A stretch of DNA of 56,336 nucleotides from a virus. Of the stretch, positions 5,247 through 50,900 are shown piece by piece (position 1 is the stretch's first letter; the number at the start of each line of letters is the position of its first letter). Below the pieces are notes generated by a model that worked only from the letters and a program-made list of their open reading frames with translations, was not told the DNA's origin and made no database searches. The position numbers and the translations under genes were made by a program. The stretch is taken from the IMG/VR virus record IMGVR_UViG_3300030108_002488, positions 18,436 to 74,771 of that record. One strand, 5' to 3'.

Positions 5247-7579
5247 TGACAATGGATGAAATAAATAGTTCAGAAAGAATTGATAGAATAAAATCACAGA
5301 AAGCGAAAGCATTGTTCAAGCACATGCGGTTTCACGACTCGTTCTCTATACCTAGAGAGTGGGATGTGCCTAGAATGTTTGTGTTACACACTGATGATTC
5401 AGATGACATCATCACAAGTGTGAGTGAATATATACAATTCCCTGTGTTTCTTAGGTCTTGCCCTGAAACACCTAGACATGGTGTGATAGAGTCAATCAAG
5501 TGTGATGATGAGCAATCTCTGTATGAGAATTTTGAGCAACTTAGTAACAAGATGAAGGAAGTTGACCCTAATGGTTGTATGATTGCTATGCCTTTCATAA
5601 ATGCAACATCTAGTGCGGTGATTGCACCTTCTGCTATTATCAAGAATGGTTATGAAGACGATGTAGGTTTCTATCATCCCGACAAGTGGTTCAATGGGTA
5701 TGCTATCTTTGGTCCTGAACATGATGGTGTTACAGCAGGTCATGGTTTTCAATTAGGTTTTCCTTTAAGGACAAATGTAAATGACAATAAAATACTTACA
5801 GCCCTTTCGTTTGACCCTAAGGTACACGAATTAGAGTTTATATTCAAATCACAAGATAGGACTAAGTATGCTACAGATGGAGTACTAGGTTCATCAACAC
5901 ATTTTGAATGGAATAGAAAGTATCTCACACAGTACAGACATGCACCTGAGCACATAGAAATTACCTCGCCACCTCAAGGAGTTGATACTCAAGGTATGAT
6001 TCCACAAGGTACAGTTGAGGTCAAAGAAGTGTGGGTTGCGGAAGGTTTAGAAGAAGTAGCGTGGTTAGAAGAAAACATCACTAAGGAGAAATGCCCCGAA
6101 GGTTTTGTAGTTCAGGAGACAGGTGGTAGTTTACTGTCACACATTTGTGCTCATTGTAGACAACAAGAGATTCCTTATGTAGTGGGTGAAGTGAGTGTCG
6201 GTGATACATGGAAAGAAGTCGCTATGGGTTGGGTAGTACTCGACCCCGATGGTGATTTTGAAGTACAAGTATACAATCCATTGGCTTACAAAGACTACTT
6301 CTTAGAGGGTGTTAGACTAGGTAACAAGTATTGGACTAAACAACAAGGTTGGTTTGCTACATTCTTTCATCAATGGATGGCTTTACCATATGGTAAACCA
6401 CAAGATGTAGCATTACTAGCAGGTGTGTTTACAGCATGGTTAACCAAAGCAGTATTAGCATTAGGCTTAGGTGAGATGAGGCACGCTCAATCAAGACAAA
6501 AGAATGCAAGTACAGCATTGTTTTCAACCATCACTGCTTGTATAGGTCAAGACCTATGGAGAGAAATACATGGTACGTCACAACTGTCTAGTTCAAGAAG
6601 AGATTACTACGTTGCTATGGGTAAATTAGAGATTGATTGGGATGATGCGGCACTTATGTTTGATTACCTTGCTAAAAATTATGCTACAGGTTGGAGTAAG
6701 TCTTACGGTGGTAAAGCATGGCAAGAGTCAATGTTAAGGGGTGCTAAACTAGCAAGAGCGTTGAGTATATTCGAGGTAGACTCCACTGATGACAACCTCA
6801 AAGTATTAATCGGTGCGGTTAACTCATGTGAAAATGCAGAGCATAACAATGGTTTCTTATTCAACAAGTGGTTAAGTAAAGCGGCATTTGACTCAGCGAC
6901 AAGTGGTTTCAATCCAAGAGATAACTTACAAAATATGTCACATACTTACGATATGGCTAGACAATTCATTGATGACTCCTTTGATATCGGTATTCCTATG
7001 GTGAGTGGTGAACCACCAGTGAATGATTGGAAGCCTTTACTTGACTATGTAATGAAAAAGACTCCTAGTTATTGGAGAAAATCACCATTATCAATCAACA
7101 AGAATGCACCTGAAGTGCTACGTGATGTGGCGAAGAAATTATCACATGGTTGGAGACATCCTGAGAGAGGTTCACATAATGACCCACACAGTGATGACTT
7201 CATTACTTGTGGTGTAGATGGTTGTCCTACTTGTAATACACATCATCAATATCTGTCAGATAAAGAGATTATTGCTGAAGCACCGATTACATCTGAGTAT
7301 GAAGGTTTAGAAAATTTGGTGATTGCCAAGCCTAAATTAGAAGTGTGGTTGGCAGGTACACAGTCACATAATGTAACAGTGAAGGATAAGATTGATGCTA
7401 TGGTGGCAGGTGAATGGGTTCCCGATGTGACGGAGTTCCATGCTCTATTCTCAAAGTTAGAGCAAACAGATATAGAATACAATATGTATATGAGCAAACT
7501 ATCCAAATGGCTCATTAAAAGTAAGGATGTACTTACAGAAGAATTTTGGATTAAATTAAAAGATATGGAGAGTGAATGA
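5243..7579 (+). CDS. Large protein with PEP-utilising-enzyme-like domains
   Basis: This is a 778-residue protein. At residues 294-314 it has TGGSLLSHICAHCRQQEIPY followed by VVG. This matches the phosphohistidine 'mobile' domain of PEP synthase and pyruvate phosphate dikinase (TxGGxxSHxAxxARxxxIPxVVG), with His300 as the expected phosphorylated residue. The N-terminal part contains FPVFLRSCPETPRHG, reminiscent of the ATP-grasp RSS-type motif of those enzymes. The C-terminal 400 residues match nothing I recognise; they contain a Trp-rich helical region and a CGVDGCPTC cysteine pair near residue 660. A PEP-binding barrel is not visible, so it is not a normal PEP synthase. It may transfer phosphate to another substrate. 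The tyrosine-phosphatase-like gene follows immediately. Confidence 0.6.
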   Translation: MMTMDEINSSERIDRIKSQKAKALFKHMRFHDSFSIPREWDVPRMFVLHTDDSDDIITSVSEYIQFPVFLRSCPETPRHGVIESIKCDDEQSLYENFEQLSNKMKEVDPNGCMIAMPFINATSSAVIAPSAIIKNGYEDDVGFYHPDKWFNGYAIFGPEHDGVTAGHGFQLGFPLRTNVNDNKILTALSFDPKVHELEFIFKSQDRTKYATDGVLGSSTHFEWNRKYLTQYRHAPEHIEITSPPQGVDTQGMIPQGTVEVKEVWVAEGLEEVAWLEENITKEKCPEGFVVQETGGSLLSHICAHCRQQEIPYVVGEVSVGDTWKEVAMGWVVLDPDGDFEVQVYNPLAYKDYFLEGVRLGNKYWTKQQGWFATFFHQWMALPYGKPQDVALLAGVFTAWLTKAVLALGLGEMRHAQSRQKNASTALFSTITACIGQDLWREIHGTSQLSSSRRDYYVAMGKLEIDWDDAALMFDYLAKNYATGWSKSYGGKAWQESMLRGAKLARALSIFEVDSTDDNLKVLIGAVNSCENAEHNNGFLFNKWLSKAAFDSATSGFNPRDNLQNMSHTYDMARQFIDDSFDIGIPMVSGEPPVNDWKPLLDYVMKKTPSYWRKSPLSINKNAPEVLRDVAKKLSHGWRHPERGSHNDPHSDDFITCGVDGCPTCNTHHQYLSDKEIIAEAPITSEYEGLENLVIAKPKLEVWLAGTQSHNVTVKDKIDAMVAGEWVPDVTEFHALFSKLEQTDIEYNMYMSKLSKWLIKSKDVLTEEFWIKLKDMESE

Positions 7580-7580
7580 T

Positions 7581-8726
7581 ATGGGTAAGAAGAAAAACAA
7601 GATAATAAACAACAAGTGGTCTAAGGTTGGTTGTCACACAGGCAACATCTTAGTCTTCAAAACAGACGAAGGAATAGAAGTCTACGGCGGTGGTACGTCT
7701 AGGCAAGGTGGTTATGATTTGATGTCACCTCCACCTGAACTAGCGATTGGTCCTAGACAAGTGATAGGTGGTTCATCTAGTACTAGCGTACCTGATGGGT
7801 TTACATGTGGTGATTACATCGCTAGTAGTGTACAGAAAATTGCTATCGACTTCCCTGACTTTGACATACCACAGGATATAGATAGAGAGTTTTGGGTCGC
7901 ATTAGTATATGACATCAAGACCAAAGGTATCAAGAGAATATCCACACAGTGTGTCGGTGGTCATGGTAGGACGGGAGTTCAGTTAGCCATTCTATATCAC
8001 ATGTTAGTCGGTGGTGAGTATGCTGATGCCAATGCTTTGATTAAACATGTTAGAGGTTTGTATTGTCACCATGCAGTTGAGACAAAATCACAGCAACAAT
8101 ACGTAGCAGATGTATGTCAGATACCAATGGGAGAATCATTATTTGAAACAGCATCTAAATCAGTATGGAGTCAACCTAGTAAGTCCTATTGGGAGGATTT
8201 TACTTACGGTAGTCTTGACCTACCAATAGATGATGAGGATGATATAGTAACAGAGGAAATATTTGTTACCGATACGGATATACCCAAAGACTTCGATTTA
8301 TTAGCATGCACTGAATGTGGTCACTTTGAATGGTATGGGCCCGATGATATCTATCCAGCATCATGTCCTAAATGTGGTAGTGATGAATACCTTGATGTGA
8401 CTGATACAATAGAAGACCCTACAGATACATGTGCTGGTAGTGGTATGGACTTCTCTTTCTTCGCTATGAGTGAAGATAAGATAGGGTTGAGTAAGTATGC
8501 ACTTGCTTTGGATGCTGGTAGGAATACGAGAAACTTAAGTGAGATTCAGTGTAATAAATGTAAGAAGTATTACGATGGGGCTTTTATGGATGAGAACATA
8601 TGGACATGCATTGAGTGCATCAAGAACACAAAGAAGAAAAAGAAAGGAAAGAAAAAGAGTAAGAAGCAAATGACTCTAAAACAATTTGCTAAAAACAAAA
8701 ACAAAAAATGGAGTGATAAAAGATGA
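7581..8726 (+). CDS. Tyrosine-phosphatase-like protein with zinc ribbons and PIP-like tail
   Basis: This is a 381-residue protein. Residues 124-131 read CVGGHGRT, the Cys-x5-Arg-Thr signature of protein tyrosine and dual-specificity phosphatases, with Cys124 as nucleophile and Arg130 as phosphate binder. Two zinc-ribbon-like sections follow: CTECG with CPKCG, then CNKCK with CIEC. The tail is strongly lysine-rich and contains QMTLKQFA, which fits a PCNA-interacting (PIP) motif (QxxLxxF). The protein may therefore dephosphorylate a target at DNA. I chose ATG 7581; a GTG at 7572 is too close to the GGAG. Confidence 0.65.
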   Translation: MGKKKNKIINNKWSKVGCHTGNILVFKTDEGIEVYGGGTSRQGGYDLMSPPPELAIGPRQVIGGSSSTSVPDGFTCGDYIASSVQKIAIDFPDFDIPQDIDREFWVALVYDIKTKGIKRISTQCVGGHGRTGVQLAILYHMLVGGEYADANALIKHVRGLYCHHAVETKSQQQYVADVCQIPMGESLFETASKSVWSQPSKSYWEDFTYGSLDLPIDDEDDIVTEEIFVTDTDIPKDFDLLACTECGHFEWYGPDDIYPASCPKCGSDEYLDVTDTIEDPTDTCAGSGMDFSFFAMSEDKIGLSKYALALDAGRNTRNLSEIQCNKCKKYYDGAFMDENIWTCIECIKNTKKKKKGKKKSKKQMTLKQFAKNKNKKWSDKR

Positions 8727-20497: not shown

Positions 20498-21013
20498 ATG
20501 AAAGTTAGATTTGGTAAAAGACAATTAAAAACTATAAGGGCTGGTATTAAGCATCTAAATAATCATGCACTTGACATCTTTGAGGCTCAATTTAATGAGA
20601 ACGAAGATGAAAGTGGTGAATGGTTACCGATTGAAGGATGGCCCGCTTCCCTTACACCTAAAGTTCATGAAAATCTTCATGAAGCACTTGGTTTACTTCA
20701 AGGTGCATTTGCTGTGCAAAGTGAGGAAGACGATTATTTAAAGAAACAGAATGGTAAACCGAATGTTACTCTTGATACTTCAATTTTCAAAACAGATGTT
20801 ATGCGTTGTGCTGCTCGTTGGCTCTTAGTTGATAGTGTTGATTTAAATTTAGGAGAGCATAATGAAGTGGGTTACGATATAGAATATAGAGACCATATGA
20901 GATTCAGAGAAAAACTTGAAAATAAAGTTGATGATATTGATTGGGGATTTGACGTAGACTACAGATGTGGCTTTTTCTGCTGCTCAGAGGAGAGTGATGT
21001 TATTTGCTACTAA
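20498..21013 (+). CDS. Hypothetical 171-residue protein, first gene of the replication block
   Basis: This unknown protein has a basic N-terminus and a long acidic remainder, with a cysteine-rich end (CGFFCC). It is promoter-proximal and overlaps the clamp-loader frame. No motif links it to replication. Confidence 0.6.
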   Translation: MKVRFGKRQLKTIRAGIKHLNNHALDIFEAQFNENEDESGEWLPIEGWPASLTPKVHENLHEALGLLQGAFAVQSEEDDYLKKQNGKPNVTLDTSIFKTDVMRCAARWLLVDSVDLNLGEHNEVGYDIEYRDHMRFREKLENKVDDIDWGFDVDYRCGFFCCSEESDVICY

Positions 21014-21948
21014 ATGCAGAAGTACATTGTATAGAGGATATTGCTGGACAATCAGCATTTAAGAAAGATGCTATTGGTTGGAGAGAAGATGGTAAATATC
21101 CCGATGCTATTTTATTATATGGCCCCCCGGGAACTGGTAAGACTACAAGTGCTCATGTGATAGCAAGAGAACTACTTGGTGAATTTTACGACCCTATCAA
21201 TTACATAGTCACGAATGCTAGTGACGATAGAGGTATTGATTTCATACGTAAAGACTTGAAACAGTGGAGTAAAGTTAGAGCCATTGGTGCTGACCGTAGA
21301 GTAATCATAATGGATGAGGCCGATGGTCTTACTCCTGCGGCTCAAGATGCGGCTAGACAAATTATAGAAACTAATGCTGACACTACATTGTTTATCCTCA
21401 CTGCTAATGATGTGAGTAAGATACGCCCTGCTATCAAGAGTAGGTGTGTATGTTATGAGTTCACTAAGATTTCAAATGAAGATGGTGCTAATCGACTCAT
21501 GGATATTTTCCATCCACTATATGAATCTCGTGGACATAACACCGCTCGGAGAGATTCTTACATGAAACTAATGCAACATGTAGGTGGAGACCTACGTAGT
21601 GCAATAGCCATCGCTGAATTACATGATGAACCCGAAGAATTACTTTCTAAACTAAGTGACGAAGGTAATGGTAGTAAGACCGCTCTTGCGGCCATCAGTG
21701 GTGAGTATGGAGACATGCGTAAACAATTTTATTCGATGCTTGATAGAGGTATGAGTCTTACCTTTGTCATGAAAACATTTCACGAGAACCTAACCGAGTT
21801 CTTTGAGATGGATACAGATACAACATGGACAATCATGAGTGTACTAGGTGAAATGATACCTAACATGTATGAATGGCCTATCGGTTCATATTCCTTTATA
21901 GATTGCTTTGTAGCGAGACTAAAAAAGGAGGTAGAAAAAAATGATTGA
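21004..21948 (+). CDS. rfcS: RFC small-subunit-like clamp loader ATPase
   Basis: This is a 314-residue AAA+ ATPase of the archaeal replication factor C small-subunit type, which opens the PCNA ring and loads it at primer ends. It shows GPPGTGKT at 40-47 (Walker A), NASDDRGID, MDEAD at 103-107 (Walker B) and SRC at 146-148 with the arginine finger. The start is unclear. The TTG at 21004 gives a short N-terminus lacking the usual KYRP motif. A better-placed ATG at 20997 lies in another frame and encodes a KCRSTL segment there. A frameshift or sequence error is possible. No large subunit is seen. Confidence 0.9.
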   Translation: MLLNAEVHCIEDIAGQSAFKKDAIGWREDGKYPDAILLYGPPGTGKTTSAHVIARELLGEFYDPINYIVTNASDDRGIDFIRKDLKQWSKVRAIGADRRVIIMDEADGLTPAAQDAARQIIETNADTTLFILTANDVSKIRPAIKSRCVCYEFTKISNEDGANRLMDIFHPLYESRGHNTARRDSYMKLMQHVGGDLRSAIAIAELHDEPEELLSKLSDEGNGSKTALAAISGEYGDMRKQFYSMLDRGMSLTFVMKTFHENLTEFFEMDTDTTWTIMSVLGEMIPNMYEWPIGSYSFIDCFVARLKKEVEKND

Positions 21949-24378: not shown

Positions 24379-25134
24379 ATGGCTGAAATTAATATAAATA
24401 AAATACAATTAGTTGATTTCCTTACATCTTTTGGTAAGGATATAGAGGATGTGAAACTAGAAGCAAATTTAAACAACACTATTACAGTTGAGATTGCATT
24501 CATATCACATTATGTACGTAAGGTATTGTCTATCAACGGTAAAGTGACTAAAGCGGGTGTCATAGAAATAAGTGACTTACCCAAAGTCATACGATTTATT
24601 AAGGCAACTAATAGTGATACTATTAAATTAAAACAAACAGCATCAGGTAAAACACTCTACGTGAGCGCTGATGCATCAAAGTTGCAGATACCTTCTAGTA
24701 ATACGATAGTGAGTTACTCCAAAGTGCCTATGATATCTAGGTTGATAGAAAAAGCAGAAGAGTCTAAGTGGACTATGTTTCACAAATCTGAACTATCTGT
24801 AACAGGCACTATTAATCTCACAGATTTAGATATAGTGAGTAAAATGCGTACAGTATTAGATTCAAACCCTGTGTTTAAAATTGTAGCACATGCGGGTGAG
24901 AATGAGTTTAGCATCACGACTGGTAAGAAACATGGAGTGAAGTTATTCACTAGCACAGAATTGAAAGATGCAGATGGGCCTAATGTTTTGATAGAATCCA
25001 CATTCGGACCTTGGTTGATGGAAACTATGGGTATACTGGATGATGGAGATGCAACAATACATTTCGGGGATTCTACAGTACTGGTTATAAAGCAACATCA
25101 AAATATGTTAATCGTTATAGACCAAAGAGCGTGA
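24379..25134 (+). CDS. pcn: PCNA sliding clamp
   Basis: This 251-residue protein has the length and two-domain rhythm of archaeal PCNA. Its opening helix is followed by a strand with FISHYVRKVLSING, it has a central connector, and it ends with the typical MLIVIDQRA strand. As a ring it would tether polymerase and nucleases to DNA. It starts behind AGGTGAT and lies between the RecA-like and polymerase genes. The short peptide encoded at 27526 carries two motifs of the kind that bind this clamp. Confidence 0.85.
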   Translation: MAEININKIQLVDFLTSFGKDIEDVKLEANLNNTITVEIAFISHYVRKVLSINGKVTKAGVIEISDLPKVIRFIKATNSDTIKLKQTASGKTLYVSADASKLQIPSSNTIVSYSKVPMISRLIEKAEESKWTMFHKSELSVTGTINLTDLDIVSKMRTVLDSNPVFKIVAHAGENEFSITTGKKHGVKLFTSTELKDADGPNVLIESTFGPWLMETMGILDDGDATIHFGDSTVLVIKQHQNMLIVIDQRA

Positions 25135-25138
25135 TTGA

Positions 25139-27529
25139 ATGATTATAGATTGGTTTTATGATGATGATGATTTTACCATTCCTAAGTTGTACGAGAGAAC
25201 TCGTGACAAAGATGGAGTATTACATGAGCGTATCATATCAGAATCTGACGATGGGTACATGAGACCTTTCTGTTGGATTCCTGAAAACACATCATCATGG
25301 AAAATACAAAGACTAAGTAATCGTTTTCCTAGTGCTAAAATACGTTGGGACGAGACATCTATAGGATTGGATAAAGAGAAGTTAGTAAAACTAGAAGTTA
25401 GTAATCCTACAGACTTATGGGATATCAAAGACGAAATAAAAACTTATGAGGCAGATTTAGTTTATGTAGACCAATATTTACTTTCTCAATATCCTGACAA
25501 AGTTCCTGACTTCCATCCTCGTATATGGTATTTCGATTTAGAATGGGATGTAGAAGATGGTTTTACTACTGTGATGGCTGTCTCTGATACACATAACGAG
25601 CACAACGTGGTATTTGCTTGGAAAGAGGGTAAAGACCTAATGAGTTCAAAATGGGTGGACAGAGAGGGTGGTTATATGCTACATGAATTTTGTAGTGAGG
25701 AGGCTATGCACGAGGCTTTTATTCAACACTTGGATGTGTGTAATCCTGACATATTGGTGGCTCATGCTATCATGTGGGCTGATTTACCACATCTCATAGA
25801 GCGTTTATCCGACCCTAATAGGTTGTCACCCATTAATCAAGTTACTAAACCGTTCAAAAATAAAAGAGGCTACAAAGACACTGCTCAACCGATTAAAGGT
25901 AGGTTGTGTTGGGATTCATCAGCACAACATAAACATGGTAGTGGTTTCGAAACTATTTGGCAGATGTCAGGACGTGGTCAACTACCTAATCGTAAACTAA
26001 ACACTATTGCTGAACAATTAGGACTAGGTAGTAAATTAACAGAGGAGATAGAGGGAATGACTGTATACAATGGTTGGAGAGATTATTATGATTCATTCGT
26101 AGATTATTGTTTACGTGACACTACTCTGTTAAGAGATATAGATGAGAAATTAAATGCAACATCTTTCTTCATTGCTATGCAGCAACTCTGTGGTGTATCG
26201 TTTGGTAGCACACATAAGGTTACTAGATACTTTCGTGGACTGGTAGGTAGAAGAACAGAGATGAAAGCATTGAGCGCTAAGAACGTAAAAAGAGAAGCGC
26301 TTACTGCCGCTCATATCCCCGACCCCATTGGTGGTAGACACGAGGGTGTAGCGGTAGTGGATTATGCATCTCTATATCCCAACATCATACTCAGTGATAA
26401 TCTATGTCATACCACTAAAAGAGATAGTGGAGGAGAAGGGATTAAAACACTCGGTAATGGCACACATTGGTGTCAAAAAGAAAAAGGACTTCTACCTAAA
26501 ATTGTAGAAGAAATGCTATCATTACGTAAAGAGTATAAACTAAAAATGAAAGAGGCCAAGAGTGCAGATGAAAAACTAAGTTATGATATGTTACAATCAG
26601 CAACTAAAGTGGCTGTAAACGCAATTTATGGTATGACGGGAATGAAATCTTTAGTGGGAATGTGGATAGATTTAGACATAGCATCCGCTATCACTTATCG
26701 TGGTAGAGAGGCGATTAGACATTTACTGACTGAGAGTGAATTGCAAGGATATCAGTCACTCTACGGTCACACAGATTCAGCGTTCATTAAAGTGCCATTT
26801 GATGAGGCCCATGCATTAGCAGAGCATCTTACTAAGACTGCTCGTGATAAACTAAAATTATCGGCTATGGACGTAGAACTAGAGGCTTACTTTGATTATT
26901 GGACTACTGCTCCTATTAAGAATAGATACTTCGGGATTAAGGTGTGGCCTGAATCAGATGCTGGTACTTTGAAAGTAGCGGGGTACGAAATGAAAGCATC
27001 CACCTCTGCTAAAATCACTAAAAGATTACAGAGTACCGCTATGCAGTTAGTGGGCACTGGTAAAAATGAAGAAGAAGTCACCACTGAGTTACGTAAAATG
27101 TCTACTCCTGTTAGAGATGGATTGGCAGACATTAACGATGTAGTATGCTCTACACGCATATCCATGCCTTTCAAGGATTACACATCACCTACCGCAGGTG
27201 TAAAAGCGGCTTTATATTATAATCAACAAATTGCTAAACATGAGAGTGATATGTGGAAGCAAGGAGATAGTGTCTCTTGGGTCTATGTGAAAGGAGTTAA
27301 GACGGACAAAGTAGACTATGTGAAGATAGGAGATAAACAAGAGAAAATTAGATTCGTGGCGTTTAGAGAAAAGGAAGAACTAGACGACTTCGTTATAGAC
27401 TGGGGTAAGATAACAGACACCTTAGTCAAGAAAAAATTAATGCGTATTTATGAGAGCGTAGGTTGGGACGTGAATCCTGCCGCAGGTGCAATAGTACCTA
27501 AATCATATTTCGAGGAGGAAATAAAATGA
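25139..27529 (+). CDS. polB: Family B DNA polymerase
   Basis: This is a 796-residue replicative polymerase with a proofreading domain. Exo I is YFDLEWD, Exo III is YCLRDTTLL, motif A is DYASLYPN (Asp408), motif B is KVAVNAIYG, and motif C is YGHTDS (His544, Asp546). Two oddities stand out. The usual first Asp of YGDTDS is His, while the metal-binding second Asp is kept. Exo II reads AHAIMWADLP, with Ala where Asn is normal, although its Asp remains. The C-terminus (YFEEEIK) has no PCNA-binding motif. It may be supplied by the next gene, which overlaps by ATGA. Confidence 0.93.
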   Translation: MIIDWFYDDDDFTIPKLYERTRDKDGVLHERIISESDDGYMRPFCWIPENTSSWKIQRLSNRFPSAKIRWDETSIGLDKEKLVKLEVSNPTDLWDIKDEIKTYEADLVYVDQYLLSQYPDKVPDFHPRIWYFDLEWDVEDGFTTVMAVSDTHNEHNVVFAWKEGKDLMSSKWVDREGGYMLHEFCSEEAMHEAFIQHLDVCNPDILVAHAIMWADLPHLIERLSDPNRLSPINQVTKPFKNKRGYKDTAQPIKGRLCWDSSAQHKHGSGFETIWQMSGRGQLPNRKLNTIAEQLGLGSKLTEEIEGMTVYNGWRDYYDSFVDYCLRDTTLLRDIDEKLNATSFFIAMQQLCGVSFGSTHKVTRYFRGLVGRRTEMKALSAKNVKREALTAAHIPDPIGGRHEGVAVVDYASLYPNIILSDNLCHTTKRDSGGEGIKTLGNGTHWCQKEKGLLPKIVEEMLSLRKEYKLKMKEAKSADEKLSYDMLQSATKVAVNAIYGMTGMKSLVGMWIDLDIASAITYRGREAIRHLLTESELQGYQSLYGHTDSAFIKVPFDEAHALAEHLTKTARDKLKLSAMDVELEAYFDYWTTAPIKNRYFGIKVWPESDAGTLKVAGYEMKASTSAKITKRLQSTAMQLVGTGKNEEEVTTELRKMSTPVRDGLADINDVVCSTRISMPFKDYTSPTAGVKAALYYNQQIAKHESDMWKQGDSVSWVYVKGVKTDKVDYVKIGDKQEKIRFVAFREKEELDDFVIDWGKITDTLVKKKLMRIYESVGWDVNPAAGAIVPKSYFEEEIK

Positions 27530-27660
27530 CAAAGAAAAAGAAGAAAACAAGACAAACAACATTAGACGAATTTGGTTTTGAATTTACAGAACCAAAGGGG
27601 AAGAGCAAACAAAAAACATTGAAAGACTACGGGTTAGTTATAGAAGGAGAGGAAGAGTAA
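27526..27660 (+). CDS. 44-residue protein with two PCNA-binding (PIP) motifs
   Basis: This tiny protein is almost only two PIP boxes: QTTLDEFG at residues 10-17 and QKTLKDYG at 29-36, matching QxxLxx(F/Y). A lysine run precedes the first and an acidic tail ends the chain. It shares an ATGA overlap with the polymerase, which itself lacks a PIP box. It may link polymerase or other factors to the clamp, or compete for clamp sites as the Thermococcales PCNA inhibitor TIP does. The gene call is firm by packing and motif pair; the role is inferred. Confidence 0.75.
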   Translation: MTKKKKKTRQTTLDEFGFEFTEPKGKSKQKTLKDYGLVIEGEEE

Positions 27661-27791
27661 TGGGTAAAAATTTAAACACCGTTATCTGTAAAGAGTGTGA
27701 AGAAAACTTATGCTACTATGGTGCTGAGATTTGTACACCCTGTTTAGACGAATTACTTTTCATGTACACAGGGATTAAGGTGAAACCATGA
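27660..27791 (+). CDS. 43-residue zinc-ribbon microprotein
   Basis: CKEC (10-13), Cys18 and CTPC (25-28) make a compact zinc ribbon, followed by a short hydrophobic helix. It starts by TAATG overlap with the PIP peptide gene and ends by ATGA overlap. Confidence 0.6.
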   Translation: MGKNLNTVICKECEENLCYYGAEICTPCLDELLFMYTGIKVKP

Positions 27792-27976: not shown

Positions 27977-28020
27977 TTATCCGACTCATCATTGATTTGA
28001 TTAGGGGGTATCTTGAGTGA
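27973..28020 (+). CDS. 15-codon coupling ORF
   Basis: A GTG-started frame of 15 codons with GTGA overlaps at both ends bridges the gap between two genes. A strong GGAGGGAGG precedes it. The peptide (IIRLIIDLIRGYLE after the start) is an amphipathic helix. It may serve only to deliver ribosomes to the nuclease gene. Confidence 0.4.
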   Translation: MIIRLIIDLIRGYLE

Positions 28021-29033
28021 GATTCAATCCTAACGATGAGAGAGAAAGCGTATATCCAAACGAAGAAATGAAGGAGTCTTACGAGAAGAGTTGTTACAAT
28101 TGGCAGCCCACTATGGAAGATAAAATATTACGTGTAACTAAATCATCTTTAGGTACTTTTGAATTCTGCCCATTACAATATTATTATCAAAACGTTTTAG
28201 GTATACGTGGTGAACAAAAGGACTATCATATACGGGGTAGTAATATCCATGATGCTATAGAATGGTACTGGAAGGAAAGTAGAGATTATATGGATGGTGC
28301 TTTAAAATTATTAGAAAAAGGTGACAAAGAGTCTGCTAGAATGCAGTTGAGAAAAGCCATACCTGAACCACCCGAACCTTATGTTTACGGGGAGAAAGCA
28401 CAGATATTGAAGTATACAGACTGGATGTTTGAAAGATTATTAAACATAGATGAGAGTGTTATAGAAGATTGGTATCCGATTGGTAATGAAGCAGAAATTC
28501 ATGCCACTAGAACTGTCACAGCAAGCGATGGCACAGTTGTTCCAATACACATGAAAGGTTTCATAGATAGAATGTTTAGAGATGACGATGGTAAAGGAGT
28601 TGTACTAATGGAATTAAAGTCGGGTAAGTATACTAAATATAAACCAAAAGCCATGAGAGATGAAATGCAATTCTATAGAATGATGTTAGAACATAGTTCG
28701 TACTTAGAATACACACCTGTTGTGGCTTGGGGATGGGCTTACCCCGGAGGAGGTATTAACGGTGGAGACGGGCCTAAATTTTTCTACGAAAGCGTTCATG
28801 GTAGAGGACCAACACTAGCGCCCAAAAGAGTTGAAAAGAACTTAGTCAAATTAGTAGACGCTCATTTAAAAAATGAGTGGGATACCAAACACAATAAATC
28901 TTGTAGTGATTTTTGTAATCATGAAAAAATTTGTTTACCTTATTGTGACTTTGTAGATATGTGTCCCGCTTGGACAGGAGAGTGTTACGCTCCTGATTAC
29001 ACAATTTTTAAGGGGGGAGAAAATGACACCTAG
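28017..29033 (+). CDS. Cas4/RecB-like PD-(D/E)XK nuclease, probable Fe-S protein
   Basis: This is a 338-residue protein with a GTG start. SSLGTFEFCPLQYYY carries the first cysteine. HDAIE, GFIDRM (Asp184), MELKSGKY (Glu199, Lys201) and QFYRMML (QxxxY) complete the RecB-type nuclease core. The C-terminal cluster CSDFCNHEKICLPYC plus CP supplies cysteines for a 4Fe-4S cluster, as in Cas4 and AddB. No cas genes are nearby. A role in end processing for replication or recombination is inferred. It could help counter host defence, but nothing here shows that. Confidence 0.8.
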   Translation: MRFNPNDERESVYPNEEMKESYEKSCYNWQPTMEDKILRVTKSSLGTFEFCPLQYYYQNVLGIRGEQKDYHIRGSNIHDAIEWYWKESRDYMDGALKLLEKGDKESARMQLRKAIPEPPEPYVYGEKAQILKYTDWMFERLLNIDESVIEDWYPIGNEAEIHATRTVTASDGTVVPIHMKGFIDRMFRDDDGKGVVLMELKSGKYTKYKPKAMRDEMQFYRMMLEHSSYLEYTPVVAWGWAYPGGGINGGDGPKFFYESVHGRGPTLAPKRVEKNLVKLVDAHLKNEWDTKHNKSCSDFCNHEKICLPYCDFVDMCPAWTGECYAPDYTIFKGGENDT

Positions 29034-29313
29034 TGGTTTACACACAGTTAGAGTGTTATTCAACGCTGCTATTAAATTAATCCACCCTGATTTAAGAGTG
29101 GAGATAGACACAGCATTAATTGAAAAAGACATAATGTATACTCCTTTTAGAGAGAGAACACATGGTGAATTTGATAATCTAGTGGGGGAGCGTTCTTCGG
29201 GATTACCGTTTGTACAAATTGTAATGCACCCTAGAATGTTAAAACTACAAAGGGTAGAGCAGACTCTTAAAGAAGTAGTTAAAAAATTAAATGACTATGT
29301 GGAGTGGAAATAA
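29023..29313 (+). CDS. Hypothetical 96-residue protein
   Basis: This unknown protein overlaps the nuclease gene by 11 bases and the primase by TAATG. It is mixed alpha/beta, with a C-terminal helix of hydrophobic heptads. It may be a small partner of one of its neighbours. Confidence 0.6.
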   Translation: MTPSGLHTVRVLFNAAIKLIHPDLRVEIDTALIEKDIMYTPFRERTHGEFDNLVGERSSGLPFVQIVMHPRMLKLQRVEQTLKEVVKKLNDYVEWK

Positions 29314-40491: not shown

Positions 40492-41927
40492 TATTCGTCA
40501 CCTCCGTATATGGCGGCTAGTGATTTACTACCCTTGATGGTTTCGGACGATGATGAGCCACCAATTAATCCTCTACCACCTGATTTACCAATAATAAACC
40601 CATCACCAGCCACACCATGATTATATTTAATTACGAACAATTTACTTACTAATTTAATATCACCGAATAAAGATGTGCTGTCTTCTACCACTTGTTGTAT
40701 TACATCAGGCTTACCTTCTGTAACCGATATGCCTTGTACTAATCCTTGTAGTATACCCTCCACACCTGTGTCTACTTGTAAGAATACTAAATTTGTAGAA
40801 TTATTAGATAGATTATGTGATACTTCTGTTAGTATTCTAGGTAAACCTTCGTAAGTAATAATTTGACCGGGTCTTAAATCCCAAGCATTAGGATGACCAT
40901 CGCTATACATACTACCCTCTAATATATTATTAGCCTTTAATATAGTTCTAGCAATTCTTCTAGCGGCATCGTTAGATTTAACACTCGCATCAGTGATAAC
41001 AGATGGTTCTTCTTGTATGTCACCACCCCTACCGCTTTGTCTTTCACCATCACTCATTATAACATAAGATACATTGTTCAAAGCAATTGGTACACCTTGA
41101 ACTGCGATTTTATTAGGGGTGTTAGCGATAGGATTTATACCCTTACCACCAGTTCTGACAGCGGAATCTATCATTCTACCCGCCTCTGTGAAATTAAAAG
41201 GAACATAAAGTAAATTACCAAATCTATCGAAGTAAGCAATACAATTATCATACCTACCTAAGAATTTAAAAGCAGTTAAAAGATTGATATCGTGGAAATC
41301 ATGTGATACAAATTTTGTAGAAAACTTTCTTCTTTCAGTATTTGCGTTTGTAGGATTACGAGATAAACCTAAGTTAACAGAAGTAAACTCATCGGCAACA
41401 TCTTTTGCTAATCTCATAGCCAAATCAGATGTTCTAAGGCCGACATTAACAGGTTGTGCAAAATGACCACTAGTACCGATAAAACCAATCTCTTCTATGG
41501 TTTTACCTTTTAAATTTTTAAGAGTCATGATTGTACCATCCGTAGATGTTTGTATATCACTTAAAAATAATCTTTGTGAAGGCGCTACACTATTGTAAAT
41601 TAAAGGTGGTTTATCTTTTGCGCTACTACTAGACAATTGTGAACTCATATAGAACACGGGGCTAGTAGAATCATGACCATCAACATCGGGCTCTAATATT
41701 TTAACACTATCTTGTCTACCTTGTATTTGATATGCTTTTCCTGTCGCTATTGCGTATGTAGATGTTTTTCTTTGTCGTATGGTCAATTTATGTTTGTCAC
41801 TATTTTGTGGATTTATTTCTGCTAAATGAACAGCGTTATCAACAAACTTAGGTTTTCTCACATGTGTCATAATTTGTGCATCTCTACTAGTGTTACCTAG
41901 TATGTATGAAGTGCTTATCAATGGCAT
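40491..41927 (-). CDS. Possible tail-hub/baseplate protein, 478 residues
   Basis: The stretch from about 310 to 400 contains ARRIARTILKANNILEGSMY, then AWDLRPGQIITYEGLPRILTEVSHNLSNNSTNLVF. This resembles the final domain of tail-hub proteins (gpD/gp44 type: ...L.PG..v...G....v..V.H......T.l). The Gly/Ser-rich C-terminus is flexible. It starts and ends by TAATG overlaps with the giant gene and the 114-residue protein. The hub identity is by pattern only. Confidence 0.45.
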   Translation of the reverse strand: MPLISTSYILGNTSRDAQIMTHVRKPKFVDNAVHLAEINPQNSDKHKLTIRQRKTSTYAIATGKAYQIQGRQDSVKILEPDVDGHDSTSPVFYMSSQLSSSSAKDKPPLIYNSVAPSQRLFLSDIQTSTDGTIMTLKNLKGKTIEEIGFIGTSGHFAQPVNVGLRTSDLAMRLAKDVADEFTSVNLGLSRNPTNANTERRKFSTKFVSHDFHDINLLTAFKFLGRYDNCIAYFDRFGNLLYVPFNFTEAGRMIDSAVRTGGKGINPIANTPNKIAVQGVPIALNNVSYVIMSDGERQSGRGGDIQEEPSVITDASVKSNDAARRIARTILKANNILEGSMYSDGHPNAWDLRPGQIITYEGLPRILTEVSHNLSNNSTNLVFLQVDTGVEGILQGLVQGISVTEGKPDVIQQVVEDSTSLFGDIKLVSKLFVIKYNHGVAGDGFIIGKSGGRGLIGGSSSSETIKGSKSLAAIYGGDE

Positions 41928-44900
41928 TATGCATCACCCGAGTGGTCTGAAGTATTGAAAGTTACATCTTCTTTATGTCCTTTAGAATGTAATGATTGTG
42001 TAAAGCGTGCTTTGACATTATAATCCTTCTCACTACCATCGCTTCTTGACGAGTCTCCTCTGAATTTTTGTAGTGTATTTTCACTAATTACTAATCTAGT
42101 CACTGTACCTTTAAGACTTGTTTTATCAAAACCAGTAGCCTCTGTACCCGGTAGTTTTGGTCCCTTAGAAGCGGGAGATTGTACACTAGATGATGTTTTA
42201 ACATAGTACACTGGTTGATAAGGAGCATTTGATGCAGGTAAATCACTTCCCGAAAAATTAGTAGAAGTAGCACTAGGTGTTGAATAATTAAACAATCCGT
42301 ATTTACCACCTGATGTCGCTGAAAAATAATTACTATCGGATTGAGGACTGCTTGAATGTAACGCTAAATTAGACCTAAAGACTTCAACGTGTTTATTATC
42401 TAACAATCTAGTTGGTCTTAGTAAAAATTGTATACTTTTATCTGTGTAATTATATCTACTAATAACAGTTCCTGAATTATATACCTGATATGGATTACTA
42501 GTCTTTTCACTAGCAGATGCCCAACTTGAAAGACCCCACCCTGTATCGTCAAATGGGTTAGCAAAACTGCTCGATTCTAATATGTAATTACCACCTAAAG
42601 CGTGTATATTACTTGTATGGCTAAATCTCATCACACCACCTTGAGGTTGACCTGCGAATGTCAACGCTGTTAAATCGTAGTCACCCAGTGTTTGTGAGGC
42701 TGCTTGCATACCACCGTGTAATATTACTCTCTGTCCTATGTTACGGTCTGTGTGTAAACTATGCGCCTCTGTATTTACTACAATCATATCAGAGGAACTA
42801 CCTCCGCTAAAAGATTCTAAGTTTTCAGCATCAATACCTATACGTGGGCTGCTTCTTGATATTGCTTCTTTATGTACAGATGTACCAGTGAAAGACTCTA
42901 CCTTCTCACTAGCAACAGCATCAGGTTTTAGTAAACCATCTTCTTCTATATCTAATCTAGCACTTATACCTCTTTTAATTTCATCACTTGCTAAAACATC
43001 ATTACGTGGTCTGATGTAACCTGTACCGAATGTTGGCTCTGAAGTATGATGAGATAACACTATTCCCGAACCTTGATACACGGTGCTAATATCCGCTAAG
43101 ACATCTTCGTTAAATTCTGTTGGATATCTAACACCACGGCCCCCACCCATATCTCCAACACGTAGAGCATTAGTAGGGGCAAAAACATCTACAAGTTCGT
43201 TAGAATTATTAGAATTAATATCATTTAATCTACCACCGAATCTAGGAATAGTGTTAGTTCTTGAACTCAGGATATTACCACTAGTATCTGCTATACCTTT
43301 TAGATTAAAGATAGGTTTACCATTATTCCAAATTCTAGCATGCGGCGTTCTATTGTTAGTCCTGTCATACTCGTAAGCATCACCAGCATCCCAAGCAGGT
43401 CTAATTCCAAATCCACGTACAGGCATTCTTCTTACATCCTCGCCACGAGTATTACCCCACCAATCGATTAGATAGTAACCTAGTGCGTTTTCAAATGATG
43501 ATATACCAAGCGCCTCGCCATCTCCCCACCAATCACGAGGTACACCTATACCACCTGTGAAATTGGCTTCTGATACAGTCGCCAAGTTTTCTGTTATATC
43601 GGTGTTACCAGCAGGTCCTGCTACTGCTTGAGTCAAAGTGACTACTCCGTTTGTTACTGTACCGACTGTGATTTTACCGTTATGACCATTAGCGTGTTCT
43701 ATCGCTGCTTTGAGTAACACAACGAATTGATGTTGTGTAGTTCCACCACTTAAGTCAAACCCAACTGCTATTCCTGTAGCGTTAGTACTTAGAGTTGCTG
43801 TAATTGAACCTGTAGATTTCAATGTGGCACCCGCCGCTACAGCACCTAAATGGGCCACACCTCCGTCATTAGTATCTGATACGAAATAATCTACTACTGT
43901 TCCGTCCGTACTTGTAAGAGTAATTTTCTGACCAGCGGTCAAACCATGTGCAGAACCATGAGCAGCAGCAGTGAGTGTAGCAGTAGCCTGTGTAGAATTA
44001 GCATTTCTGATAGTTCTAACTGGGCAACCATATGAACGAGTCATTCTTCTACCATCACTGTATCTTGTTTGGAATTCAGGTTTATCCATGCCTAACATAC
44101 CAGTAAAGTTAGTTTGTCTTTCCATAACTCCAACATAAGTAACAGGTAATGTAGCAGACCCTATAGATGAGTCATTTCCAACATAAGTTAAACCGCCAAA
44201 TGGATACTCCACTAACGGACCTTGTCTATTTTCAACTGTAAGAGGAACTGCGCTTCCTGATGCCAATGTATCTTCCATCCACGCTCTTAATCCATAGAAT
44301 CCCCATTGTGGTCTATTCCATGGTTGTCTTAAACCGAATCTATAACCGAAAGTTTGTGGTCTATATCCACCGACAGTTTCACCTGATGCTGCGGGAGGAC
44401 TTGCGTTTGGATTGAATGTAGATGCTAATCCCAAACTTACACTATAACTACCATCATCATCCTTATCTAACCAATAAACAGATGTTCCTGCTGGATAATA
44501 ACCAGCCATATTCCAACCTGCGGCAGCCATAGCATATCCGTCTAGGTTACTATTTAGCGGCCCACCTCTACTACCACAAGGCCAATAATTAGATAGCATT
44601 ATAGTTGTGCTTCCTTGAGATTGAATACCATTTAGGGCATGGATTTCTGCTCCTGTACCTACACTACCATCTGCTCCAACATATATTGTACTACCAGTAG
44701 CGGGTTCGAATCCTTTACCCGTGTCTGCTATTGTTACATTTGCTGTAGCGACAGCCAAAACTTTACCTATTATTTTACCATCTGCGAATAAGAAATCATT
44801 AACGCTTACTTCGCTACTTACATCACCAGCAAAAGTAAAAATTCTTTTTAATCCGTTAACTTTGACTGTACCACTTGAACCACCTGCTATGGTTAATGTA

Positions 44901-47900
44901 TCTCCGTAAGAATAGTTTTGTCCTGCGTTATTAATCGCAACAGCGGTAATAACATTAGAACCACTTACTGTCAAATCAAAAGTAGCACTAGAACCTGTGC
45001 CACCAGCACCAGCCTGTGTGGTAGCACTATATCCACTTCCACCTGCGGTGAGAATTACATTATTTATTGTCCCACTAGTTCCGTAACTTGACAATGTTTC
45101 AGAAATGGGCACAGGTGGTTTTGGTGTCTTGATATCCATGTTGAAAGGACCGTGACTGATAGAAGAATTAACACCGTGATAATGTATTGTTTCAAAATGC
45201 TCAGGAATAGAATTGTACGCTGCTTCATCAACCGCTCTATCTGCATGTAAGTTACTACCGTTGATAGGGAATGTTCTACTTGAGTCTGAATAGAAAGTGT
45301 AAGGTCTTCCTAAGTTAGGACTCCAAGCGCAGATAAAAGCATCAGGTGTATGCAAACTGTTTGTGTCACGAGTACCAGCCAATAATTGAGGTAGATTTCT
45401 TGTCAAAACACTTCGCTTAGGTTCTGTAAATAACTCTGTGGTACTAGCATTACTATACGGTCTAGTTAGTCTAACAACTGTACCAGCCTCAGGTAATGAG
45501 CCCGATGCAGCACTAACTATGAATTTATGACTTGTTGTTGAATTAGCATTAGTAACCGCTCCTCTCGATGAATACGCTAATGTTGCAGTAGTACCATCTG
45601 AGTTTACCCAAGTTAATTTTTCTCCAAATAAAGGTATGAATGGGAAATAAGAGGCATCGTCAACGGTCAACAAATTAGTAGCCTTAGTTACTACAACTGC
45701 TGTCGGACATAAACTACGATTCTCAAGTCTGTAAGAATATATATCAGGGTATATACTTGGATATCCAGCCAACGTTAATTGACAACCTATACCACCAGTA
45801 CTACCTCTACAGAATTCATAATAATTATCTATTCTGAATAATGCTAGATGTTTGAACCCAGTCATAGATGTGACTCTACTATGGAATATACTCCACCATG
45901 GTATGTTTAGTGTATAACCCGGTGTGGCATCATCAAACATACCAACATGATAAGAGTGAGTTCTACGTGTAAAAGATGGTGATTCACTACCCTGTACACC
46001 CAATGAGTTGTACAATAACAAAGGAGGTATGTTAGTAAATTGACTTCCTTGGTCAGGGTCATGGTCTAACATTACCTCGTTAATAAATATCTCACAACCT
46101 CTCACATCTACTACTGTGGCTTGTGCTAATATCAGTGTTAAACCGCCCACATAATCCGCTTCTAGTCTTTCATCGTCTTGTTTTACACCAACCACAAGAT
46201 GCACTTGTTGTGTTGTTAAAGCCTCACCTGAGCCATCAGGTAAAGCCGATGAACTGCTATTATTGAAGTGATGACCACCAAGATGTGTGCTACGTAAATT
46301 AGGCTGTATGACTATTTGATAAGCACCTACTTCAGCAGGGTCAGGGAAATGATGTTGTAAAGTGTAATGATTAGCAGCCTCTAACACAATAGAATGACCA
46401 CCTGCTTTGTTTATATCTCCACCCTCACCACTAGACGCTAATACACCGTAACCATCATACTTGATTTTAGACTCAAACATCAAAGTAAAAGCCCCACCGT
46501 GTATATCACTTGGTCCCGAAGGTGTAGCGGTTAAACTACCTGATTTTAGTGTAGCAGAAAGAGGATGAATGTAATCAGTGATGGATGTACCTACTGTGCT
46601 AGTTACGTCTGCTGCCCCCTCAGTGAAACCTTCTTTAAAAGTTATTATATCCTCATCTTGCCTCATAGTAAGGTTCTCACTTCTATGTTTATTGTATATA
46701 CCTTGGTAAGCAGGATGCGCCCAATGACCGGGTAACATGGGCATTGTAGCATTAACAAAATGATGACCCATACGAGGCACAGGCATCGGCGTCAATACTT
46801 TGTCACTATATCTAGCGTAGGCCAGTGTGTCGTTGGAAGATGGTTCGAAGTATTCTGTGTGTGCCATGTCGGGACTGTTACCACTCACTTCAGCATGGTC
46901 ACGAAGTCTTCTTGCTGCGAAGAATCTTGTGCTACCAGCAGGAACATAATATGACGGGGATATATTCAAAGTCGTTGTAGCAGGAGGATTGTCCGCTATA
47001 AATTGTGTAAAGTCTATATCCCCTACTACTCCTGTAAATGTGGTGCCACTAATTCCTGTGTAGGAGACAACTACACTATCACCTGTTGTGTTAGATATAC
47101 GTAAAAATCTACGTGAGCCCTTTACTTCTTTAGATGCAAAACCTGCATCGTATATACTAGATGTAATTGTAGCAGATGCTGTTAATGTACCACTAGCATA
47201 AGAAGATACTGTCAACGCCTGATTTACTATCCCACTAGAATGTGTGTATACAGTTGGGTATCTTTCTGTGTGGCTATGACCCATTTTAGTAATATGGAAG
47301 TATAGAGTTTTATCTTGTAATTCATAAGATGAACGCAAAGGAGCGTTATTAGTACTAGCAACCCATCCATCTCTTGTGGAATCAGGGAAGTTCTCATCTT
47401 GACTAATATGTTCCCAACCAAGTTCATCCATTGTTTTATTACTTCTAGGCCCCTTGATGGAATTATCAAATAAACTACCAAGGTGAGTTTCGCTTAAATC
47501 AGGATGTAACATACCACCATCTCCGATTGTTTCTGTTTGATATGCTTGTAATCTATCAAAACCTGAACGAACTAGTATATTACCGGGTATAGCGTTAGGG
47601 TCGGGTAATTGTATTTCGAAGTTAGGAGATAGACCGCTATTTGCTAAAGATGGTTGTAAACCACTAGCAGACCTTTCTCCTGCTGCTTTATAAGCACGTA
47701 TTATGACACCTAGAGGAGACCCTCCTTCTAATTCATGAGTTTGACCAGTATCATCTATGACAGATATCGCTTGGAATTGTATTTCTTCGTTTGGTATTTC
47801 TAAAATATTCCTCATTTCTTTAGGATTTTTAGATGCGTATTGAGGGTGAGATAACTCTTGTGCTTGTAAAACTGGCATCATCGCAGAGTTAGTCGTCTCA

Positions 47901-50900
47901 AAAGAAAATCTAACGTTACCATATAATTTCTCACCCATAACGTGTGCTGTGCCAGTTGCCCCGCCTACCGCTGCTCCTGAAACACGGGTAACCCAAGGAA
48001 TAGCACCTAGACCACGGGCGTTTACAGATGGTAGTGTTAGGTTACCCCCATCCATTCTTTTCCACACCGCATGTTCCACATTGAAATTTTTAAATGGTGC
48101 ATTTTTATATAAATCGTAACCATTAACATCCCCTAACCAAAATGAGTTTCTTTGTAATTGAGAACTTCCGCCTGAGAATATAGTACTTGGTGAAACATTA
48201 GTTTGACTGTAAAAGTAATCAGCAATATTTCTTTGTGGTGTTAAGCCTGTGACACCTGCTGTGTTTACAGAACCCACGCTTTCATCTAAATCAAAGAATA
48301 AATCACCCGTGTAGGCCCTACAAGGTTCTGCGTTTTCTAAATCTGTGTCGGTAGTAATTGTGTTATGTAAAAAGAAAGTAGATGCGAAACCATTATCTAA
48401 AGCATTGGCAGCGGTATAATCTGAAATTGTAGGTAAAGATGTGGATTTGGCAATTAAAGCCTCTACATTAGGACCAGCATTAGCAGGTGCTGTAAATCTA
48501 TCTTGACCGTGTATTCTTTCATCCCACTGTGTAGTACCAGCATGTGTGTCTGTGCCTGTTTGTCCGACTTTGATATAATCTCCAACACAAGTAATACCGT
48601 TTCTATCTTTCTTAGCAACTAATGCTAACTCAGATTCATATGATATTACTAATAAAGCACGGGCGTAAGTACCCTGTGGGTGAACAAGTTCGGGATGTTG
48701 AGCACTTAAATCACGAGCGTTTCCAAATCTATCTTTGTAACTATAATTAACAGGTTGATTATGAAAACCAGTGTTATCAGAGAAAGTTGGTACATGAGTA
48801 TCTGTATCGAAATCAGGACTTGCACTCCAACTACTATCTCCACCAGTAGGGTCTGTTAAACTCGGTAAACCTGCTAAAGTGCTTGTTCTATCGGGTGCTG
48901 AACTTTCAGGACTATTTGGCATAGGAGCAACGTTGGGTATATGACCAAGAGTGGTAGCACATGTCATACTACCCCCATACGGGCTAAAGCCCAGTAGAGG
49001 ATGCCATGCTCCTAATCCAGCACCATATCTATTACTACCTGTATCTAATGAGTTTAAGTAAGAATAACGTTCACCAGCCCAACCCACTGCTCCTATTGGT
49101 TTTGTTCTATCAACAGCATCAACTAATCCACTAAAGTGTACTTGCGTCATGTGGTTTCTAGCGGTATTGTCATCGTTGTTGAATTGTATAACACCTGCTT
49201 TTGTCCAAATATATAGAGCATCACCTTCTTCTATATCAGGTATTTGGACATCTGCTGCGTGAGATGCACCCATATTAAGAGGACTTTGGGCTATGTAATC
49301 ATCCCAAGTCGCTACACTTTCAAACACTTTAGTGCCTGTTATTTTATTATTTGCTAAATAAAATCTGATTCTATATTTACTAGAGCCGCTGTCATAGTAT
49401 ACTATTCTTGAATGATAACAAGCGAAGGCTGGTGCTAACTCTCCTGAACCCGTTAGTTGAGGATGTATGTTTGCTGTACGTAACCAACCTGATGCAGGTA
49501 CTTGTTCCGCTGCCGTTCTACTAGTACCATGTTCTATTGTAACATAGGCATTTTCTATTTTACATGCAGTTCCATCAACATCTTCCATATCTGCTCCTGT
49601 AAATGTTAATGTTTGACTACTTTTACTCCCACCTGTAGTAGAGACACTTAATTCGAATTCACTTACATTGGTTAAGGCACTACCTGTAGTGATTGATGCC
49701 ACTGTAGCGCCCGCTGGAATACCATCTCCTGATACATACATACCAACTTGAATAGCATTCGAGGCTGTACAAGTTATAGTGGGGTCATTATTGTAAGCAG
49801 CACCAGTAGCAGTGTTATTATTCAGATTATTATATTCTTTTACAGTATATCCAGTAGTCCAACCATACTTATCTTGTCTCATGGCATTACCCATGGAGGG
49901 CATGAAAGTACCACCTATTGCCTTTAAAGCACCTTTACCGGGGAACGTATTAATTGCTGCCCCTAACACAGTTGCTAACTCTTCACCGTTTTGACATCTT
50001 GTCCCATCCACAACTATGTATTCCATGTCTACATCACTGGCTGTTAAAGCAGTTGAGTCAAAAGAACTTCCATCAGCGGCACCGCTGTAAAGTAATTTAG
50101 TAGCCAAAGGTGCTGCTACTCTGAATGCACTCGGGTTTAATTCTATACCAGTAATACCCGCTTTAGCAACACGACTATTATCCGTAGGATGTGGAGGGTT
50201 TGCTGTTATCTGATTATCTAACCAAGAACCACCGGGGTGATATCCACCGTCCATATGGAAACATAAATCTGCATTAGTCCTCATACCACTTGGTCCCATA
50301 AATATAGCATGTCTGTTTGGTTGCGCTGTACGAAAATCCTCAAAAACATCATCACCTGATATACCACTCTTGGATGCTTTGAACGCTAATGTAAACACAT
50401 CCCCATACATATTACCCGATTCAGGTCTTTGTAGTAGAGTCTGAGACAATGGTTTACCAACAGGCGGCTCCCAATTGATAGTTTGTCTATAGTGGAAAGC
50501 ATGCCTTGTTGTTTGATAATCAGATGTTTTAGGCATGAAATGCCCTTTTTCATTGTCAATATGATTAGGGAATATAGGAGTACCACTATTGGCTGGTACA
50601 CTAGACCAAGTATTACCAGTGGTAATTGCTTTACCGGGATGAGGCTCTAGTGTGTTATCAGGAGTAGCGTCTTCTTGTGAAAACGGGAACGCTTGCCCCG
50701 GTCCGAATATAATGTATGTTGTTTTATTATCAGTTCCGTCTCTATGGTCTTGATATCTAGCAGTAGGGTGAGCGAATCTCAATAAGAAAGGCATTGGTTT
50801 TTGAACATGAACACCACTACTGTATGGTGTTTTATTAGGATGGGCGTTGTTAATAGTACCCACTCCTCTATCTAAATCAGACGTTAGTACATTATCACGA

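Follow-up and report, generated by a model that had tools for sequence, protein, structure and literature searches.

Clamp binding is normally provided by a tail on an enzyme. In the virus studied here, the family B DNA polymerase (PolB) has no such tail, and the gene directly downstream encodes a microprotein of 44 residues that holds two PIP boxes (PCNA-binding motifs) and little else. This raises the question of whether clamp docking can be supplied by a separate peptide, and to which clamp such a peptide would bind. The stretch of DNA analyzed (the window; 56,336 nucleotides) comes from a virus record of 74,771 bases (IMGVR_UViG_3300030108_002488), and the features that bear on this question are listed in Table 1.

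Table 1. Positions of replication genes, motifs and ribosome-binding signals in the window.
Feature	Position	Strand	Remarks
Clamp loader (RFC-type AAA+)	21004..21948	+	
Viral sliding clamp, predicted two-domain PCNA-like fold	24379..25134	+	AF2, Foldseek, relatives aligned
Family B DNA polymerase, no PIP box at the C-terminus	25139..27529	+	Pfam DNA_pol_B, 4.8e-41
Shine-Dalgarno GAGGAGG of the microprotein gene	27512..27518	+	Inside the 3' end of polB
Double-PIP microprotein gene	27526..27660	+	44 aa; ORF with orthologues in relatives
PIP box 1, QTTLDEFG	27553..27576	+	Residues 10-17 of the microprotein
PIP box 2, QKTLKDYG	27610..27633	+	Residues 29-36 of the microprotein
Shine-Dalgarno GGAGAGG of the next gene	27646..27652	+	Within the last codons of the microprotein gene
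Cas4-like PD-(D/E)XK nuclease	28017..29033	+	Operon context
C4N, alpha/beta protein of about 100 aa after Cas4	29023..29313	+	PIP box in a loop of the orthologues; lost in the window

The gene content indicates that the virus is magrovirus-like, since PolB, a PCNA-like clamp, a clamp loader, an ERCC4 nuclease and a thermosome are present in one virus and match the gene set published for the Magrovirales (ICTV profile). The host is presumably a member of the Poseidoniales; a search of genome contigs via PolB and the thermosome returned no usable match to a Poseidoniales host genome. The replication operon comprises the genes for the RFC-type clamp loader, a RadA-like protein (assigned by position and a Walker motif), the clamp, PolB, the Cas4-like nuclease and an ERCC4 nuclease, with the thermosome gene further on. 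The genes at 29304 and 31494 are putative primase and MCM genes by position and synteny only, with no firm Pfam match.

That the virus encodes its own clamp, as proposed in the initial annotation, is supported by structure prediction only. The product of the gene at 24379 had no match by sequence in Pfam, PHROGs, PDB sequences or PF00705. Its AF2 model (pLDDT 90.8, 17 sequences) matched archaeal PCNA and the bacterial beta clamp in Foldseek with a probability of 1.00 and TM scores of 0.6 to 0.7, indicating a predicted PCNA-like fold. The connector region of the model contains a helix, and the clamp is very divergent.

The microprotein ORF was found with the coordinates, length and motifs described in the initial annotation, and its reported overlap with the polymerase gene was also recovered. 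The microprotein gene has a strong Shine-Dalgarno site of its own. The polB stop codon and the microprotein ATG overlap by 4 nt (ATGA, 27526-27529), and the next gene begins at the last base of the microprotein stop codon (TAATG). The protein, MTKKKKKTRQTTLDEFGFEFTEPKGKSKQKTLKDYGLVIEGEEE, contains no cysteine. Its acidic GEEE end results from in-frame reading of the next gene's Shine-Dalgarno site (GGAGAGG), and conservation of this end therefore need not reflect protein function; GEEE-type ends were also seen in neighboring genes, where the cause is probably the same. Both motifs fit the pattern Qxx[IML]xx[FY], and two such loose motifs arose in 3.5e-5 of shuffles of the 44 residues. The strict pattern Q[TSKA][TSK]L..[FYW] had no match in the long ORFs of the window, which total 15,830 aa. 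Neither Pfam nor PHROGs has a family for the microprotein, for C4N or for the long form of about 75 aa described below, and the RNA structure at the polB/microprotein junction was unremarkable (z, -1.43). The gene directly 3' of the microprotein gene (27660-27791, +) encodes a 43-aa protein with two CxxC pairs.

To follow the gene in relatives, PolB scans were made of metagenomic IMG/VR contigs, which are partly redundant. They gave 110 loci (labeled with L-numbers) with 75 distinct PolBs, and the counts given here are of distinct PolBs. The 14 distinct viruses in which the short gene directly follows polB, the window among them, form a monophyletic clade (SH-aLRT, 85). Its product has two motifs in the window, L051, L032, L034-L037 and L039-L043 and one motif in L017 and L054. 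All 26 motif copies in these 14 relatives keep Q-x-x-L-x-x-F/Y/W, and the linkers and tails vary. Between the window and L051, the microprotein gene shows two silent changes and no replacements. Silent changes also outnumbered replacements in most other pairs, with L039/L040 as an exception. In L032, the residues QTTLDEWGMT occur twice, encoded by different codons. The excess of silent changes in most pairs, together with the invariant motif residues, indicates by comparison of sequences that the motif is under selection, and the reading of both motifs as PIP boxes gains support from this conservation, the lack of which in related viruses the initial annotation had named as a refutation. Among the 75 distinct relatives, ORFs of 14 to 60 aa with the strict motif were the orthologues at the polB-downstream position and two isolated ORFs unrelated in position. 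A different gene of 37 to 39 aa, MGFWDRLFRRLR...YYxRAKRxYGVEEE, occupies the place of the microprotein gene in L002, L005, L027, L045 and L048; it begins much like the long form.

The lack of a PIP box at the C-terminus of the polymerase, pointed out in the initial annotation for the window, extends to all 75 distinct PolBs of its family, most of which end in PKxYW or PKxHW. In contrast, a C-terminal PIP box (QKTLDEWW, QTSLDEWW, QTSFDDWW, etc.) was present in 31 of 31 distinct PolB C-terminal halves from split-polB viruses. These viruses are related to the Aoguangviridae, whose PolB has been described as NTD/CTD. Halovirus PolBs end in QSQTGLAAFC (4 of 4). The simplest history consistent with these sequences is that the cis PIP box is ancestral and was lost in the PolB family of the window. 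As some relatives (L092-L105, see below) have no PIP box nearby, the PKxYW end could in some viruses be a clamp contact of its own. A replacement link between loss of the PolB terminal tryptophan and a PIP gene directly downstream (16 of 17 versus 6 of 58) was rejected, as only four independent pairs were available and the association was not significant.

A second candidate carrier of a PIP box is C4N, which was found in 61 of the 75 relatives. Its model (pLDDT 81.6) has the order alpha-beta-beta-loop-beta-alpha, with the PIP box in a flexible loop of low confidence. The box, Q-x-x-L-x-x-F/Y/W, was present in 48 of 48 viruses without the microprotein. In the microprotein clade, it was gone from the window, L051, L035-L037, L039 and L040, broken in L032 (QRTLLEH) and degraded, though formally matching, in L041-L043; it was intact in L054, with its single-motif microprotein, and in L034. 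These states correspond to about four irreversible losses, all within a clade that makes up 10.7% of the tree length. Such clustering has a probability of about 1.3e-4 for four events at equal rates, a branch-length argument that is weaker than a formal test, and a tree-paired test had only two independent pairs. The PIP-bearing C4N is confined to the family with PIP-less PolB. The gene at the same place in the split-polB viruses was rejected as a homolog (hhalign probability, 0.3%) and encodes an unrelated protein. C4N is a family of small magrovirus proteins with a PIP box in a loop, and no significant match to its fold was found in PDB or BFVD.

Further PIP proteins were found in the related operons. 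The long form of about 75 aa (M-K-W-x-F/W-x-K..CxxCG..RQTTLxEF..QxxLP..ERVGMxxxxRKYRG) has one or two PIP boxes and belongs to sister lineages. Its gene lies 5' of the clamp gene in L044, L046, L049, L052, L053 and L055-L058, and it follows polB in L070 and L099. The long form may be homologous to the microprotein, but the profile matches between them (E values, 6.6e-5 to 0.01 for the double-motif forms) are driven by the motif. In L106, a PIP box is fused to the C-terminus of the neighboring MSRIEDEVC protein. The split-polB viruses L121, L133, L135, L144 and L150 have PIP microproteins of 19 to 23 aa after RFC. Two-motif microproteins of 33 to 37 aa occur in L120 and in L152, there near a DNA ligase gene, and L148 encodes a 40-aa microprotein with a PIP box and a possible helix. 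In L190, L191, L192 and L196, a two-motif gene of 27 to 28 aa directly precedes the ERCC4 nuclease gene; it lies 2.5 to 2.8 kb after the polB-CTD gene and overlaps the start of the nuclease gene. An IMG/VR scan for DNA coding QTTLDE[FYW]G gave 40 stretches, about 25 of them from this virus group and most in tiny ORFs. The positions of the PIP microproteins vary, yet they were always among replication genes where the context was readable. In L092-L105, a PIP box was absent from PolB, from C4N and from the small genes up to 10 kb away, indicating that a PIP box in trans is not universal. As a separate observation, L082, L084 and L091 encode N-terminal fragments of a RadA-like protein with a PIP box at their end (QTTLLEFT, QTKLTDFT and QTTLDEFE), about 4.6 to 5.2 kb before the polB end, as if a RadA-like gene had been split and its first part given a clamp tail. 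The L148 operon, which also has a DNA ligase gene besides that of the PIP microprotein, contains an archaeal histone-like gene (L148:2435-2683; PF00808, E value, 8e-4).

Taken together, the distribution of motifs suggests that PIP docking is supplied by separate tiny proteins in relatives with PIP-less polymerases. Motif and selection make it very likely that the microprotein binds some clamp of the PCNA fold. The viral clamp is its rather probable target, and the clamp, RFC, polB and nuclease genes in the same operon are consistent with docking. Whether the peptide acts as a positive docking factor or as an inhibitor is evenly balanced, and a role in the viral replisome as a clamp-docking peptide that acts in trans has about an even chance of being correct. 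In this model, the microprotein would be translated with polB and become part of the replisome. Being small and probably unstructured, it would fill the PIP pocket of the virus's PCNA-like clamp with either motif, the two weak sites would add avidity, and the peptide would help to hold or hand over replication proteins. PolB would have lost its own PIP box, and the family would supply PIP boxes in trans, on the C4N loop, the CxxC-containing long form or the microprotein, carriers that could replace one another.

The absence of a cis PIP box, the restriction of the C4N box to the PIP-less family and its loss beside the double-PIP gene all argue for an exchangeable docking function. L034, which keeps both the C4N box and a double-PIP microprotein, is the one clear exception to this exchange. 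Also against docking are the divergence and the connector helix of the viral clamp, and the 44 residues offer no obvious second binding surface for PolB. The split-polB viruses have PIP microproteins in addition to a cis PIP box, indicating that the microproteins do more than replace a PolB tail. The general proposal that magroviruses took polymerase-clamp docking apart, with the PolB PIP box lost and clamp access governed not by enzyme tails but by small separate genes for exchangeable peptides (the C4N loop, the long form and double-PIP microproteins of down to 19 to 28 residues), is tentative and somewhat more likely to be wrong than right. The initial annotation had suggested that two sites could bridge two subunits of one ring. 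Neighboring PIP sites of PCNA-type rings are about 60 A apart. The linker between the motifs is 12 residues in the window protein and only 6 to 8 in orthologues, which makes bridging within one ring unlikely for the shortest of them. Avidity or rebinding at one site, or the joining of two clamps, is possible.

The motifs resemble archaeal PIP boxes that have a single aromatic residue, and their surroundings are short and probably unstructured. However, known PIP boxes are tails or loops of larger enzymes, and the microprotein is nearly all PIP box, twice. The split-PolB magroviruses (Aoguangviridae-like) and the haloviruses share the operon logic, the viral clamp and PolB, but their PolB carries the box in cis. 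PBP1 and PBP2 of Sulfolobus are likewise tiny, long-overlooked accessory proteins of a family B polymerase. They bind PolB (PolB1-binding); PBP1 combines a Cys domain with a Glu-rich tail, and no PIP box is mentioned in the paper on these proteins. The microprotein has neither such a domain nor such a tail, only the Shine-Dalgarno-derived GEEE. A literature search that covered few subscription papers returned nothing on PIP boxes in magroviruses.

The main alternative, possible but less likely than docking, is a decoy directed against the host. The microprotein would fill the PIP sites of Poseidoniales PCNA and block polymerases, FEN1 and RFC, so that host replication and repair would stop as they do with p21, agnoprotein or TIP, and viral PolB could lose its PIP box because its own clamp uses another contact. 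The 19- to 37-residue microproteins of relatives, which are almost only PIP box (MSLENSRQTTLDEFGFVFE; MNKENSRQTTLDEFGFVLETRQTTLEEFGFEFD; MKQLTLDNFGLIIEGQTKLSDFYVSDRQ) and too short for an adaptor, fit this idea, as do the coexistence of some very short ones with a cis PIP box on PolB, a viral clamp not recognizable by sequence and a conserved PKxYW end that could be a different clamp contact. There is also a precedent in the polyomavirus agnoprotein, a small viral protein with a PIP-like motif that acts on PCNA (PMC5217368), although it is unrelated in sequence, its motif is imperfect and the animal virus has no clamp of its own. On the other hand, the microprotein gene is always in the replisome operon, its PIP box is exchanged with that of C4N, a conserved protein of this operon, and related PolBs clearly use PIP boxes, most simply on the co-encoded clamp.

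It is considerably less probable that the microprotein regulates the viral clamp as TIP (Thermococcales inhibitor of PCNA) might, by opening or unloading the ring or by switching the polymerase off for hand-over. TIP is also a very small archaeal-type protein with a PIP box, and a PIP box followed by a possible amphipathic helix, the arrangement of TIP itself, was seen in the orthologues of L032, L034 and L054 and in L148. However, the helix signal was not significant against shuffles in any of these four, and the L035-L043 orthologues and the window protein have no helix; the best moment in the latter, 0.43, was reached by 69% of shuffles. TIP is a cellular protein of 64 aa with one non-canonical PIP box, a 17-residue amphipathic helix and a partial PH-like domain, unlike the helix-free viral protein with two PIP boxes encoded beside polB. 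A non-functional by-product of translational coupling with chance motifs would account for the very short gene and for an acidic end explained by the next Shine-Dalgarno site. This is highly improbable given the motif conservation, the mostly silent changes, the recurrence at one position, the gene's own Shine-Dalgarno site and the shuffle frequency.

If docking in trans is correct, these viruses would provide a natural experiment on PIP evolution, in which a clamp tail has turned into a separate gene, occurs once or twice and is exchanged among accessory proteins. They would further provide examples of very short protein genes under selection, and purified parts would allow a direct test of how PIP-less polymerases reach the clamp. 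If host PCNA is the target instead, the microproteins would be replication poisons of a new class, encoded by abundant viruses of marine archaea.

PIP-like motifs were also seen elsewhere in this genome, the first 18.5 kb of which were read as one stretch for ligase and further motifs. To the left of the window, a 192-aa protein (L155:12956-13534, -) has an N-terminal PIP-like QQSLTEW. Within the window, a 384-aa phosphatase-like protein (7572-8726, +; GGHGRTGVQ) with a zinc ribbon has a lysine-rich C-terminal tail that holds the PIP-like QMTLKQFA. The region at 41927-56308 (-) is a single ORF of 4793 codons.
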